DNA from: Thermoanaerobaculia bacterium
Lineage (GTDB): Bacteria > Acidobacteriota > Thermoanaerobaculia > Multivoradales > JAGPDF01
DNA length: 45,666 nucleotides
NCBI GenBank assembly: GCA_018057705.1
Contig: JAGPDF010000034.1
Coordinates: 1-45,666, forward strand
Reading direction: 5' to 3'
In this document: positions 37,070 through 42,474 of the stretch, piece after piece
How the letters are laid out: each line of letters begins with the position of its first letter
Position numbering within the stretch: the first letter of the stretch is position 1
The notes under the pieces: generated by a model
Told to the model about the DNA's origin: nothing
The model's input: only the letters and a program-made list of their open reading frames with translations
Databases searched by the model: none
Translations under genes and position numbers: made by a program

Positions 37070-38827
37070 GTGACTCCCAAGACCGAAACCTCGCGCCCGA
37101 CGACTCCCCCCACCCGCTGGTCCCAGACCTATCTCTTCACCACGCGCGAAGTGCCGAACGACGCCGAAGTGATCTCCCACCAGCTGATGGTGCGGGCCGG
37201 CATGATCCGCAAGCTCGCCGCCGGCATCTATACCTACCTCCCCTTCGGCTGGCGGAGCCTGCAGAAGCTCTCGGCCATCGTGCGCCGCGAGATGGCCGCC
37301 GCCGGGGCGGTGGAGCTCTCGATGCCCTCGATCCAGCCGGCGGAGCTCTGGACGGAATCGGGGCGCTGGCAGAAGTACGGCAAGGAGCTTCTGCGCATCC
37401 GCGACCGCCACGACCGCGAGTTCTGCTTCGGACCGACGCACGAGGAGGTCATCACCGACCTGGTGCGGCGCGACGTCAAGAGCTACCGCCAGCTGCCGTT
37501 CAACCTGTTCCAGATTCAGACCAAGTTCCGCGACGAGATCCGGCCGCGCTTCGGCCTGATGCGCGGCCGCGAGTTCCTGATGAAGGACGCCTACTCCTTC
37601 CACGCCACGCCCGAGAGCCTCGACGAGGCCTACGAAGCGATGCGCGCCGCGTACCGACGGATTTTCGAGGCCTGCAAGCTCGATTACACCGTCGTCGACG
37701 CCGACACCGGCACGATCGGCGGCTCCTCCTCGCACGAGTTCATGGTCACCGCGGCGACCGGAGAGAGCGCGGTCGCGCACTGCGACGCCTGTGGCTACGG
37801 CGCCAACACCGAGAAGGCAGCGCGGGGGCCGTGGGGGAACATCTCCGAAGCCGCCGCGGCGGAGCTGACGCGCCGCGACACGCCGGGCATGAAGACGGTC
37901 GCGGAGGTGGCGCAGTTCCTCGCCGTTCCCGAGACCCAGTTCGTGAAGACGCTGATCTACGAGACCGACAAGGGCTTCGTGGCGGTGGCGATCCGCGGCG
38001 ACCGCGAGGTCAACGAGGTGAAGCTCCTGAACGCCTTGAACGTCGAGCACCTGCAGCTCGCGACCGAAGAGAAGGTCCTGGCCGCGACCGGCACGCCGGT
38101 GGGTTCACTGGGTCCGGTCGGCCTGCCCGCGGCGCTCCGCCTGCTCGTCGACCTCTCGGCTGCCGGACTGCGGAACTTCACCTGCGGCGCCAACCAGACC
38201 GACGTCCACCTCCTGAACGCCAACTGGGGCCGGGATGCCAGGCCGGGCGACGTCGTCGATCTCGTCACGGTGGTCGACGGCGATCCGTGCCCGCAGTGCG
38301 GCGCGGCGCTCGCGATCTCGCGCGGCATCGAGGTGGGGCACATCTTCAAGCTCGGCGACAAGTACTCGGTGGCCATGAAGTGCGAGTTCACCGACGAGGC
38401 GGGCGCCCAGAAGCCGATGATCATGGGCTGCTACGGCCTCGGCATCGGCCGCACGGTGGCCGCCGCGATCGAGCAGAACCACGACGCCGACGGCATCATC
38501 TGGCCGATGCCTCTGGCGCCCTTCGAGGTGCTGGTGATCGCCCTCAACCCCAACGAGGCCGAGTCGGCTCGCGCCGCCGAGGAGATGGCGAACGAGCTCG
38601 CGGCCCGCGGCCTCGACGTTCTCTACGACGATCGCGACGAACGGCCGGGGGTGAAGTTCAAGGACGCCGAGCTCATCGGAATTCCGCTCCGCGTCGTGGT
38701 CGGCGGCAAGTCGCTCGCCGCCGGGCAGATCGAGTTCGCCCTGCGCCGCGACCGCCAGAAGCTCCTGGTGCCCGTGGCCGACGCCGTCGCCAAGGCCCTC
38801 GAGCTCGTCGCCGCCGAACGCGGCTGA
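37070..38827 (+). CDS. proS: Prolyl-tRNA synthetase
   Basis: ProS charges tRNA-Pro. The 585-residue product is the long bacterial type. Its class II catalytic core has motif 2 (RDEIRPRFGLMRGREFLMKD) and motif 3 (GCYGLGIGRTVAAAIEQ). The inserted editing domain (INS) spans about residues 230-390, with the YbaK-like segment ETQFVKTLIY. A C-terminal anticodon-binding domain (about 480-580) contains VLYDDRDERPGVKFKDAELIG. It starts with GTG; no strong ribosome site is visible, and a slightly different start is possible. It is the last rightward gene before the repeat-rich spacer. Confidence 0.95.
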   Translation: MTPKTETSRPTTPPTRWSQTYLFTTREVPNDAEVISHQLMVRAGMIRKLAAGIYTYLPFGWRSLQKLSAIVRREMAAAGAVELSMPSIQPAELWTESGRWQKYGKELLRIRDRHDREFCFGPTHEEVITDLVRRDVKSYRQLPFNLFQIQTKFRDEIRPRFGLMRGREFLMKDAYSFHATPESLDEAYEAMRAAYRRIFEACKLDYTVVDADTGTIGGSSSHEFMVTAATGESAVAHCDACGYGANTEKAARGPWGNISEAAAAELTRRDTPGMKTVAEVAQFLAVPETQFVKTLIYETDKGFVAVAIRGDREVNEVKLLNALNVEHLQLATEEKVLAATGTPVGSLGPVGLPAALRLLVDLSAAGLRNFTCGANQTDVHLLNANWGRDARPGDVVDLVTVVDGDPCPQCGAALAISRGIEVGHIFKLGDKYSVAMKCEFTDEAGAQKPMIMGCYGLGIGRTVAAAIEQNHDADGIIWPMPLAPFEVLVIALNPNEAESARAAEEMANELAARGLDVLYDDRDERPGVKFKDAELIGIPLRVVVGGKSLAAGQIEFALRRDRQKLLVPVADAVAKALELVAAERG

Positions 38828-38863
38828 GGGCGCCAGCAGCGGCCTCCAAGAAAAGGGGACACA

Positions 38864-38913
38864 GAAAACAGGGACAGGCACCATTTAATTTAATGGTGCC
38901 TGTCCCTGTTTTC
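38864..38913. repeat. 22-base perfect inverted repeat (50-base palindrome)
   Basis: Two 22-base arms, 38864-38885 and 38892-38913, are perfect reverse complements around a 6-base AT loop. The arm contains GGGACAGGCACCATT. Palindromes with this GACAGGCACC motif are seen as dispersed intergenic repeats in several bacterial phyla and resemble REP elements. It lies 37 bases after proS. No transposase is adjacent. It may double as a transcript end. Confidence 0.75.
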
Positions 38914-38920
38914 TCGGTAG

Positions 38921-39049
38921 GCGGGCGGTGGCGTGGACGCGGGATTCCCGGCGCGCAGTGGCGGGGGGCCCCGCCGACAAGAGAAGAAATCCGATCGACC
39001 GGGGTCCCGACCGAGCACCGGGGATCCCGCGTCCACGCCGCCGACCGCC
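38921..39049. repeat. Arm-core-arm repeat module A
   Basis: Outer arms 38921-38949 and 39021-39049 are complementary at 26 of 29 positions. They enclose a GC-rich core (38950-39018) that begins GGCGCGCAGTGGCGG and ends CCCGACCGAGCAC. The same core recurs in reverse orientation in module B (39128-39194), but module B has different arms. Short reading frames run through it on both strands; they mirror each other between modules and are not treated as genes. Confidence 0.75.
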
Positions 39050-39096
39050 GGCGCACTCGCATCAGCCTTGGACAGGTCGCGCTTGGTCGATCCGCC

Positions 39097-39224
39097 GGCC
39101 GCCGACAGGGATCTCGAAAGGATCCCAGTGCTCGGTCGGGACCCCGGGCATCGGATTTTCCGCCAAAGGGCGGGGCCCCCCGCCACTGCGCGCCGGGCTC
39201 CTTTCGAGCTCCCTGCCGTCGGCC
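39097..39224. repeat. Arm-core-arm repeat module B (inverted core)
   Basis: Outer arms 39097-39126 and 39195-39224 are complementary at 26 of 30 positions. The core 39128-39194 is the reverse complement of module A's core: the first 26 and last 20 bases match exactly, and only a short middle segment differs. The arm sequences of A and B differ, yet each pairs with itself, which points to selection on a stem structure. The 521-base spacer 38828-39348 contains these repeats, the palindrome at 38864-38913 and the terminator at 39274-39311, and no convincing gene. Confidence 0.75.
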
Positions 39225-39273
39225 TGTCCTGAGTGTTCTACGGGTCCGATTCCAAGACGCGTGAAGTCCAGAC

Positions 39274-39311
39274 AAAAGAAAAAGGCGGGAGCGCCGAAGC
39301 ACTCCCGCCTT
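39274..39311 (-). terminator. Rho-independent terminator of the TonB-receptor gene
   Basis: On the minus strand AAGGCGGGAG (39302-39311 as read from the other strand) pairs with CTCCCGCCTT (39282-39291), followed by TTTTTCTTTTG running to 39274. The stem is 10 bases. It lies 38 bases past the receptor stop codon. Confidence 0.85.
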
Positions 39312-39348
39312 CCCAAGGCTCGCGAACGAGCCTAGCCTGCGGCAGTTC

Positions 39349-42300
39349 TTACCAGAGGAACTTCAGACCGAGACGGACCGTCCGGGCCTGCTGGAAGGGG
39401 TTGCCGAAGGAGACGCCCGTGTTGGGCTTGAGGTAGAACGGATTCTCCGTACCGGCGACAACCGACGGATCCAGACCACCACCGAAGAAGTAGTCGTAGC
39501 TGCCGTCGCAGGCGTCGGTGTCGCAGAGGTCACCGTCGAACTGGTTGTTGTCGACGAGCAGAACCGCGTCCTCGTCGAACAGGTTCAGCACGTTGATGCT
39601 GGCCTCGAGCGTGAAGTTACCGATCTTGAAGGGGTGCGTCACGAGCAGATCGGTCTGCGTGAGGTCATCCGTCTCGCCCGCGTTGCCGCGGCCGAAGGGG
39701 AAGAACGGAACGCCGACGTAGTTCCACTGGGTGGAGATCGGCGTGCCGCTGCCGTAGTACTGGTTGACGCCGACCGTGGTGCCCCAGCCGAAGCGATAGA
39801 TGAACTGCGCATCGATCTGGTGCGGACGCTCGGTGTTGAGCGAACCTTCGGTCAGGTTGCCGTTGAGATCGAACGCGTTGTGCAGCGCGTCGAACGCACG
39901 GCTGACGTTCGGGTCGGTACGGCCGAACTCGTCGGAGCTCGCGAGACCCGAATAGGTGCCCTCGAGCTTGCTGTAGGTGTAGCCGACACGGGCCGACCAG
40001 TTGCCGGCGAACCGGCGGTTCCAGGACAGCTCGATCGCTTCGTAGTCACGGATCGCTTCCGGCTGCGCCGGAATCGGGCCCGAGCCATCCGGGTCGCCAG
40101 CGACGAGACCCTTGCCGGGGTTGCCCGTGATGTAGACCTCGTTGCGGACGCCGGTGACCGGGTCGTTGACCAGGTAGCCGATGTCTTCGATGGTGTTGTT
40201 GAGGGTCTTGTTGACGTAGCGGATGCCGAGCACCGAGGTGTTCGTCCACTGCCAGTCAGCACCCAACTGGAACTCTTCCTGCTCCATCGGCTTCAGGTTC
40301 GGGTCGATGGCGTCCTGCGGGTTGGTGGGGTGACGGAGGTCGAGAATGACTTCCGGCGCGCCGAGACCCGGGCAGGGGTTGTTGCTGGCCTGGTTGGTGG
40401 ACTGCGTGCAGTTGCCGCTCGCGAGGAGCGCCGGCCAGTCGAGCGTGTTCACCGGGAAGAGATACTCGAGCCACTTGTCCGCGCCGAACGAGCCGCGGGG
40501 CATCTCGAGCTTGGTGATGTCGTAGTAGATGCCCCACGAACCGTAGACCTTGATCTTCTGGTCGGAGAGGACATCCCAGGCGAATCCGACGCGCGGCGCG
40601 ACCTTGTCGCCGTACTCGAACTCGATGGCGTTCTCGGGCAGCGTCGGATCGACCTTCGCGCCGTAGTTCGGAACGCGCTCCTGCTCGGTGCGGACACCGA
40701 GATTGACCGTCAGGTTCGGGAGAACGGACCAGCTGTCCTGCAGGTAGAAGCCGAGGTTCTTGCTGTCGGCAGCACCCTCGGTGCGGAAGCGGCGGACGCC
40801 GAGCGAACCGTAGGTGCCGATGACGCCAGCGCCGAAGCGATCCGGCAGGCCCCAACGGAAGGTGTAGAGGTTGACGGCTTCGCCGGAGGAGACTTCGTTG
40901 CTGATGTTCTCCATCTGGATTCCGGCCTTGAAGGCATGCGAACCGAGGCCATTGACGAACAGGTTGCCGTCGATGGAGGCCGATTCACGCTCCCAGAGGT
41001 CGGTCGTGGTGGAGTTGTTGCCGGGGAACGAGGTGAAGCCGGCCGGACGGAACAGGGGGCTGTTCGCGATCGGGTAGGCCGTGTTGCGGAAGAAGACCTG
41101 CGCCGTCGCATCCAGACCGCTGTCGCTCGTATCGTCCGACCAGAAGCCGATGCGGCCGGAGAGATAGAAGTTGTCGACGGGGATGTAGTCGGCGTAGGCC
41201 GAGTAGCTCTCGGTCTCGAACTCGGTGACGACCGAGAGATCGGCGAGCGGCGAGGTCGAGCCATCCTTGTTCGGGAGGTTGCCGTCGACGGTGCGCGGCG
41301 ACAGGTTCGCCGAGACCTTGTACAGGAACTGCGAGCCGACGTTGCCCTTGATGTTGCCGGTCAGGTACTCGCTCTTGTCGTTGCGATTGGCCGTCGGGCT
41401 GTTGCCGTCCGGCGTGCGGTCGATGTCGACCTCAGTGTAGGTGTAACCGACGTAGAACCAGGCCGCATCCTGCGCGATCGGGCCGCCGATGGCGAAGCCG
41501 GGCTCGAGCGTCGTGGTGTCGTCCTTGTCGAACGTGCGATAGAGGGACGGATCCGAGCGATACGGGGTCGCGCGCTCGTCGCCGTTCATGGAGGAGTCGC
41601 CGTAGTACATGCCGACCCAGCCCTTGAACTCGTTCGTGCCGCTCTTGGTCACAGCGCTGATCACGCCGCCGACCGAACCGCCGTACTCCGCCGCATAACC
41701 GGCCGACTTGACCTGAACCTCTTCGACGAAATCGGTGACCATGTTCTGGCCGGAGATGCCGTCCTGGGGATGGGTCGTGTCGACGCCGTCGATGACGAAG
41801 CGGTTCTCGGAACCGGAAGCGCCGTCGATCGAGATACCGCCGAGGAAGCCCTCGTTCGCGGCGCCAGCAGCCTGCGTGGCGACGCCCGTGAAGTCGCGGC
41901 CCTTGGGCAGCAGCTCGATCTGCTCAGCGCTGATCGAGGCCGCGGTGGCCGAGCTCTTGACGTCGACCTGGCCGGCTTCGCCGACCACGCTGATCGTCTC
42001 GGAGACGGCGCCGACCGCGAGCGTGATGTTCGCGGTGACGGTCTCGCCGAGGCGGACGTTGACGTTCGTCACCTCAGCCGGGTTGAAGCCGTCGAGCTTC
42101 GCGACCACCACGTAGGTGCCCGGGGGCACGCGGGGGAACCGGAAAGCTCCGGACTCGTTCGTGGTGCCCGCGAGGCGGGTGCCACCGGCCGAGACCGCTT
42201 CGACGGTCGCGCCCGGCAGAACCGCGCCCGACTCGTCCGTCACGGACCCTTCGATGGCGCCCACCTGCTCCTGGGCGCCTGCCGGAGCGACCGCGAACAT

Positions 42301-42360
42301 CGCCACCAGGGCGAGGGCCGCAACGACGCCGACATTCAGCCAATTTCTCTTGTTCAACAT
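39349..42360 (-). CDS. Oar-like TonB-dependent outer-membrane receptor
   Basis: This roughly 1003-residue outer-membrane protein has a signal peptide (about residues 1-29, ending PAGAQ). A carboxypeptidase-regulatory-like domain (about 33-115: GSVTDESGAVLPGATVEAV, PPGTYVVVAKLDGF) follows. A TonB plug (about 125-240: VEEVQVKSAGYAAEYGG, VISAVTKSGTNEFKG) and a long beta-barrel come next, ending VRLGLKFLW with a terminal aromatic residue as in barrel proteins. This matches Oar/OmpA-related receptors, abundant in Acidobacteriota and Bacteroidota. The substrate is unknown. I chose the ATG at 42360, 7 bases after GGAGG; another ATG one codon earlier (42363) is equally possible. It is monocistronic, with its own terminator. 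Confidence 0.9.
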   Translation of the reverse strand: MLNKRNWLNVGVVAALALVAMFAVAPAGAQEQVGAIEGSVTDESGAVLPGATVEAVSAGGTRLAGTTNESGAFRFPRVPPGTYVVVAKLDGFNPAEVTNVNVRLGETVTANITLAVGAVSETISVVGEAGQVDVKSSATAASISAEQIELLPKGRDFTGVATQAAGAANEGFLGGISIDGASGSENRFVIDGVDTTHPQDGISGQNMVTDFVEEVQVKSAGYAAEYGGSVGGVISAVTKSGTNEFKGWVGMYYGDSSMNGDERATPYRSDPSLYRTFDKDDTTTLEPGFAIGGPIAQDAAWFYVGYTYTEVDIDRTPDGNSPTANRNDKSEYLTGNIKGNVGSQFLYKVSANLSPRTVDGNLPNKDGSTSPLADLSVVTEFETESYSAYADYIPVDNFYLSGRIGFWSDDTSDSGLDATAQVFFRNTAYPIANSPLFRPAGFTSFPGNNSTTTDLWERESASIDGNLFVNGLGSHAFKAGIQMENISNEVSSGEAVNLYTFRWGLPDRFGAGVIGTYGSLGVRRFRTEGAADSKNLGFYLQDSWSVLPNLTVNLGVRTEQERVPNYGAKVDPTLPENAIEFEYGDKVAPRVGFAWDVLSDQKIKVYGSWGIYYDITKLEMPRGSFGADKWLEYLFPVNTLDWPALLASGNCTQSTNQASNNPCPGLGAPEVILDLRHPTNPQDAIDPNLKPMEQEEFQLGADWQWTNTSVLGIRYVNKTLNNTIEDIGYLVNDPVTGVRNEVYITGNPGKGLVAGDPDGSGPIPAQPEAIRDYEAIELSWNRRFAGNWSARVGYTYSKLEGTYSGLASSDEFGRTDPNVSRAFDALHNAFDLNGNLTEGSLNTERPHQIDAQFIYRFGWGTTVGVNQYYGSGTPISTQWNYVGVPFFPFGRGNAGETDDLTQTDLLVTHPFKIGNFTLEASINVLNLFDEDAVLLVDNNQFDGDLCDTDACDGSYDYFFGGGLDPSVVAGTENPFYLKPNTGVSFGNPFQQARTVRLGLKFLW

Positions 42361-42474
42361 CATCAAACCTCCATCAGGTTGATAGGGACCGCCGGCGGAA
42401 CGATTCCAACCAGCGCAACTTGGTTACAGCGGTGTGAAAAGCCTAACACAAGGATTTGGGGCCTTGTCACCCTT

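Follow-up and report, generated by a model that had tools for sequence, protein, structure and literature searches.

Intergenic hairpin modules with freely varying, self-pairing arms around a common core in one family of Acidobacteriota

Results

The window analyzed here (45,666 nucleotides) is one whole contig (C34) of a 5.08 Mb draft genome. In it, the convergent genes proS (37070-38827, + strand) and a receptor-like gene (39349-42366, - strand) enclose a gap of 521 nt. Two modules lie inside this gap, module 1 on the + strand (38917-39053) and module 2 on the - strand (39093-39227). A previous sequence-only reading had described them as inverted modules with a common core, each with its own self-pairing arms, and a repeat search as well as pair counts confirmed this. 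The self-pairing comprises 38920-38959/39010-39049 for module 1 (I1, 85% over 40 nt) and 39097-39136/39185-39224 for module 2 (I2, 80% over 40 nt). The cores are indeed reverse-complementary to each other, but the first shared block is 29 bases long and not 26 (I3, 38947-38975/39169-39197, 100%); the second comprises 24 nt (I5, 38999-39022/39124-39147, 96%). When the 316-nt stretch was folded as DNA, an energy of -121.7 kcal/mol was obtained, compared to -84.1 +/- 3.8 kcal/mol for shuffled sequences (z = -10, reached by 0 of 100 shuffles). A strong intrinsic terminator-like hairpin with a T run is found at 39279-39314 (- strand), directly past the receptor-like gene and ahead of module 2.

Module 1 starts with a 5' foot or tail of three nucleotides, GTA (38917-38919); the next nucleotide is the first G that is paired (GTA/G, the slash marking the start of the helix). 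The left arm of 30 nt (38920-38949) is followed by the left core half GGCGCGCAGTGGCGGGGGGCCCC (38950-38972), which has at most a few changes in the main-type modules of this genome, while the pair on contig C39 carries a variant. The apical loop region of 28 nt (38973-39000) is less conserved, and AAATCC and GAT recur in it in the module alignment. The right core half GGGGTCCCGACCGAGCACC (39001-39019), the right arm (39020-39049) and the 3' foot GGCG (39050-39053), which recurs directly outside the helix in many modules, complete module 1. In the arms proper, 27 Watson-Crick pairs and two G.T pairs are formed at 30 positions. A linker (39054-39092) separates the two modules. Module 2 has the same parts in inverted order, all on the - strand: the 3' foot, again GGCG when read on that strand (39093-39096), the right arm (39097-39126), the right core half GGGGTCCCGACCGAGCACT (39127-39145), with a core that does not differ from that of module 1 over the compared stretch, an apical loop region of 26 nt (39146-39171), the left core half (39172-39194), which is identical to that of module 1, the left arm (39195-39224) and the 5' foot ACA/G (39225-39227, with ACA at 39227-39225 on the - strand). 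Its arms form 26 Watson-Crick pairs and one G.T pair at 30 positions, so that the claimed complementarity of each arm pair was verified. By arm clustering, the left arm of module 2 belongs to a class that it has in common with modules C106b of the same genome and C446a of a related genome (G001).

The core is not unique to this locus. The genome of the window (G000) and seven other genomes of the same bacterial family (G001-G007) were compared, and six of these eight genomes of one Acidobacteriota family carry modules. According to a second covariance model, built on 28 modules, and after removal of reverse-strand duplicates, the copy numbers are 11 in G000, five in G001, 16 in G003, seven in G005, four in G006 and five in G007, about 48 in total, with none in G002 or G004. 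In fragmented assemblies these numbers are lower bounds, because the G001 contigs C1 and C446 end in or near modules, and C126 ends inside proS, next to which a module might be expected. The further copies in G000 were first seen by a DNA search of that genome, the weak extra matches of which mostly look like coding DNA. A first covariance model, built on ten G000 modules, was used to search 72 genomes of the order, and its matches were confined to the taxonomic family of the window. Covariance model searches were extended to the class, 148 genomes in total, and revealed no carrier in the 140 additional ones. A pattern scan of genome contigs had matches in JAGOCP010000215.1 and in several JAIOJQ contigs, which are Thermoanaerobaculia MAGs, and one in Bacillota, which does not fit the covariance model. 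Searches of plasmid and viral contigs yielded no match. The family as such is thus well supported.

A typical module has a length of about 135 nt. Its outermost part is the 5' foot; further inward follow 20-33 stem pairs, then the core, which is interrupted by internal loops, and finally an apical region that comprises about 24-32 nt. The sequence of the stem, i.e., of the 20-33 bp arms outside of the core, is nearly free. The core sequence varies among genera, and the plan remains unchanged. In 45 modules the foot was tabulated; most have an A directly before the first paired G (NNA/G), and GTA/G is the commonest of several forms (12 of 45). At the 3' end of the helix GGCG often follows directly. 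Neither foot nor the copies elsewhere in the genome had been within view of the sequence-only reading. Some modules stand alone; others are arranged as inverted pairs, with both possible orders being represented, or as alternating arrays of three (G003:C24 and C9). Inverted pairs or arrays with linkers are present in the window, at G000:C106 and C39, G001:C249 and C446, and G003:C16, C18, C24 and C9. The linker is conserved among recent G003 copies. At a dimer that is orthologous in G000 (C39) and G001 (C249), it is not conserved, and in the alignment it is far more diverged.

Clustering of the arms of 36 modules resulted in 20 arm classes. The arms of different copies are therefore not identical, and they are also not random: in 20 of 20 classes the left arm pairs better with its own right arm than with any other, the mean duplex energy being -58.6 kcal/mol versus -30.6 kcal/mol for foreign partners. 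Within the ten G000 modules, 22 of 44 pairs have changes on both sides, and 81 cells with both-side changes were observed, in contrast to at most 16 for slid structures. The covariation score was 0.575 versus 0.174 after shuffling (0 of 500), and all five measures used exceeded all 500 shuffles. The idea that selection acts on the structure of a family of mobile structured DNA elements, which was put forward on the basis of the window only, is supported by the copies, the arm classes and the covariation. It is well supported that the pairing of the arms is selected or actively kept.

G000:C39 and G001:C249 represent the same dimer in two genomes, at a locus that is orthologous and has an identity of 85-87% in the flanks on either side. 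In register, seven double changes were found that left the pairing Watson-Crick, while about 0.8 would be expected with independently changing sides. Pairing has thus been maintained at a fixed orthologous locus, which suggests host-level selection or self-templated repair, beyond selection at the time of transposition alone. The pairing could be kept mainly by a copying process instead of selection, namely by hairpin-templated strand switching in the course of replication or repair (quasi-palindrome correction), whereby one arm is rewritten from the other. This would fit the comparison of C39a and C249b, in which six of the eight differing pairs have changed on both sides, five of them within the inner 20 pairs, where no single change occurs, and several of the double changes are pairs of transversions, which require a mismatch intermediate. 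However, the internal loops of the core have not been corrected into perfect pairs, and in close copies of G007 the states A-T, G.T and G-C are all present at one stem pair. In addition, templated copying gives no reason for the strand asymmetry of the mismatches described below, and we regard it as distinctly improbable that it is the main cause of the pairing.

A single transition in a stem is equally expected to generate a G.T or an A.C mismatch. The modules were oriented by their cores, independently of the arms, and the mismatches were counted in the arms only. On the strand defined by the core, G.T was found in 40 distinct contexts and A.C in two (sign test p = 4e-10), with the use of distinct contexts being a partial and not a full phylogenetic correction. 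The raw numbers are 60 G.T and 15 A.C; all but one of these A.C, 14 in number, stem from a single fixed position that G003 copies have in common. A wider count, which also took in positions beyond the foot and within the core, gave a less distinct result (49 versus 20 contexts), and the arms-only count was used instead. G.T mismatches are present in both partners of inverted pairs, i.e., on opposite strands only a few tens of bases apart (for example C34a/b, the window pair, as well as C106a/b, C249a/b and C18a/b). Therefore, the asymmetry is explained neither by regional replication or another bias of the chromosome strand nor by transcription of the neighboring genes. For modules that lack a sense-oriented neighboring gene, as assigned by hand from gene calls, the ratio is 19 G.T versus four A.C, and all four A.C are the shared G003 position. 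The strand asymmetry is well supported, and it points to one particular strand of each module as the form under selection, and as the one that works when folded. As evidence for strand-specific recognition of single-stranded DNA, it is indirect.

The excess of G.T over A.C fits RNA, with G.U pairs, as well as single-stranded DNA. The modules could therefore be structured RNAs, either small RNAs or UTR elements, in which the core binds a protein or an RNA and the stem has merely to pair. Covariation and mismatch asymmetry are both as expected for an RNA, and the enterobacterial ERIC element, which has a similar size, acts in mRNA when it is transcribed in one orientation (PMC2229807). However, such RNAs would require inverted partners to be transcribed in opposite directions within about 300 bases, no sequence upstream of the foot is conserved across the G003 copies, and the orientation of the neighboring genes is mixed, divergent pairs included. 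At the window pair no sigma-70-like promoter was found around the modules, and the terminator-like hairpin of the receptor gene precedes module 2. The modules had no Rfam family at threshold, and the sub-threshold miRNA-like matches are most likely chance hairpins. A transcript between proS and the receptor gene, the other possibility that had been raised from the window, has thus become less likely, also in the light of the unrelated genes in every orientation that neighbor the modules. RNA is the main rival explanation; it accounts equally well for the asymmetry, it fits poorly to inverted partners, upstream sequences and gene orientation, and we consider it rather unlikely.

All of the 24 sites analyzed are intergenic, with convergent, divergent and tandem neighbors, and the flanking genes are functionally unrelated. 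The intergenic placement, together with the position of the window pair between convergent genes, would be compatible with bidirectional transcription terminators or boundary hairpins between genes. Yet a T run is absent after the module stems, many sites are divergent or tandem, and the receptor gene already has its own terminator-like hairpin. Besides that site, a terminator scan at the window pair had one other match, a weak one within module 1 on the - strand. A role as terminators is thus very improbable.

The dispersal of the modules is well supported. Copies of two types in G003 (nine of the A-type and five of the B-type) can be aligned inward from the foot; 5' of it they are unrelated, with the exception of one upstream block common to three copies. 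In recent G003 copies the shared sequence begins exactly at the foot, GGTAG or GAGAG. The counterpart of the G000:C6 site in G001 is 121 nt shorter and has neither the module nor either arm; it is a single candidate empty site, which is too diverged for reading a target duplication and might also have originated by deletion. The whole module with both arms is thus present or absent at one site. Taken together, mobility of the modules is moderately supported by these sequence comparisons, and they would have moved by transposition. Different arms around a fixed core could also be accounted for if a mobile core had been inserted into pre-existing palindromes, or if the target had been duplicated in inverted orientation, so that the arms would be target DNA. 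However, neither arm is present at the G001 site. Moreover, twelve G003 modules at dispersed sites belong to only two arm classes, and therefore the arms travel with the core. The empty site and the G003 copies largely refute this explanation, which has become scarcely credible.

The cores of inverted partners were compared in 11 cases; ten were identical, and the remaining one had a single difference. In contrast, the arms of the partners are only 38-62% identical, except for the pair at G006:C183, which has matching arms. Between the orthologous C39 and C249 the cores differ at eight positions. The C39 core variant has seven changes from the common core, and these are present in both C39 partners. 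In G003, three arrays each have only one state of a T/C variant in the core, though arm classes are common to different arrays. These few loci lend moderate support to the view that the core may be converted between inverted partners via their complementary cores. Such a conversion would explain the combination seen in the window, the same core with different self-pairing arms. Inverted dimers with identical cores and unrelated stems could thus be a natural case for local conversion between inverted repeats.

Discussion

The opinion that no named element has this layout is roughly right, yet the anatomy closely parallels that of REP and BIME elements, in a version several times larger. Like REP, BIME and REPIN elements, the modules are imperfect hairpins in intergenic positions with stem irregularities, one strand is apparently functional, and inverted pairs and alternating arrays with linkers are formed (PMC8266576; PMC3733652). 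The short 5' tetranucleotide of REP elements, most often GTAG, has a partial counterpart in the modules, of which 12 of 45 have GTAG and the others mostly have different NNA/G forms. For REP hairpins, it has been described that TnpA-REP processes the single-stranded form on one strand only, and that processing in E. coli depends on a 5' GTAG together with a stem bulge (PMC8266576). However, the modules have a length of about 135 nt compared to 20-50 nt, and arms of 20-33 bp plus the core compared to stems of 5-13 bp. Their arms are sequence-free, the foot is mostly NNA/G, no cognate RAYT gene is adjacent among the 32 of 39 Y1 genes examined, and four to 16 copies per genome contrast with hundreds in many REP families. 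Because the modules are larger, have free stems and are not linked to RAYT genes, we do not claim that they are REP elements, but only that they would work like them.

Other systems share single features. ERIC/IRU/RU-1, YPAL and RPE are also intergenic imperfect palindromes of 100-170 bp that form one long stem-loop, and the Caulobacter intergenic repeats (CIR), which are linked to the CcrM methylation motif, have two long inverted repeats that form two arms with a linker between them (PMC2229807). However, the CIR arms are fixed parts of one repeat with GANTC, whereas the modules also occur singly and have variable stems. Most ERIC- and MITE-like palindromes keep terminal inverted repeats, several with TA ends, while in the modules the base is variable, with outer arms of 20 classes instead of conserved termini, the apex is conserved, and inverted dimers are formed. 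In integron attC sites one folded strand is recognized by its structure, the sequence of the stem is weakly conserved, and it is the ends, located at the hairpin base, that are conserved. The modules share with attC the apparent one-strand structure and the weak conservation of the stem sequence, but have the opposite arrangement, with a variable base and a conserved apex.

We propose, with a probability of about 0.5, that the modules are giant REP/BIME-like elements that act as single-stranded DNA hairpins, the core of which is recognized by a DNA-processing protein. The working form would be one specific strand as a single hairpin with an NNA/G foot, a free outer stem and an irregular apical core. 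The strand would be DNA rather than RNA, and a HuH-like or another protein would bind the core. The candidate protein would recognize the core on the folded single DNA strand, similar to HuH transposases of the TnpA-REP type, and might disperse the modules into intergenic sites, often as inverted dimers. For the outer stem, pairing would be required, while no particular sequence would be. Several observations speak against this proposal: no enzyme was found, GTAG is one of several foot forms, the G.T excess would also fit RNA, pairing is kept at the fixed C39/C249 locus, and the single empty site might be a deletion. It is also possible, though doubtful, that the modules represent a new structure-defined class of mobile elements, in which a non-RAYT enzyme would use an irregular apex on one DNA strand, any paired stem would be accepted, and partner cores would be converted.

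Repeat families are normally defined by shared ends. Here, the ends are free and only the pairing is kept, and therefore the usual repeat finders would split or miss such a family. The ratio of G.T to A.C in long stems offers a simple test for the strand under selection in palindromic repeats. REP, ERIC and similar elements, the working form of which may be either single-stranded DNA or RNA, could be examined in this way.

Several candidate movers or associations were considered. Y1 (RAYT-type) genes, 39 in total, are present in all eight genomes, including the two without modules. No module was found near the 32 of the 39 Y1 genes that were examined (about 1.5 kb each, less at contig ends); for five of the six carrier genomes, every Y1 gene detected was among them. 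Thus, no examined Y1 gene is flanked by a module, the repeats that flank Y1 genes are other families, and RAYT was rejected as the mover. An association with specific neighbors was also rejected, the flanking genes being unrelated; one neighbor, of which G003 has several copies, resembles by eye a gene for a DUF2911-type protein. At G006:C183 (1579-3291, L147) two facing modules with nearly the same arms, at a distance of about 1.4 kb from each other, enclose a single gene for a 391-aa repeat protein. It was considered as an autonomous copy, but the enclosed gene looks by eye like that of an FG-GAP repeat protein and not like a transposase gene.

Some additional features were observed in the vicinity of modules and in the genome of the window. 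Adjoining the G000:C23 module, a structured-looking leader precedes a homocysteine S-methyltransferase gene (L006, 1700-1880), which had no Rfam family at threshold. G000 has 11 Y1-type transposase genes (L131-L138, L087, L095 and L102), several of which are very similar to each other. The short repeats beside them differ, e.g., GAGGTGCCACCCGATTTCC, GGGGACTGTCCCC and GGTAACTGTCACGG, and G000 apparently hosts several distinct RAYT/repeat systems. In the window, a near-perfect palindrome of 52 nt (38863-38914, AGAAAACAGGGACAGGCACCATTTAA and its complement) is situated a few bases ahead of module 1. Because a 14-mer of it is also present on two other contigs, and similar repeats (GGGACAGGCACG/CGTGCCTGTCCC) lie beside some Y1 genes, this palindrome is probably a RAYT-associated repeat that is unrelated to the modules.
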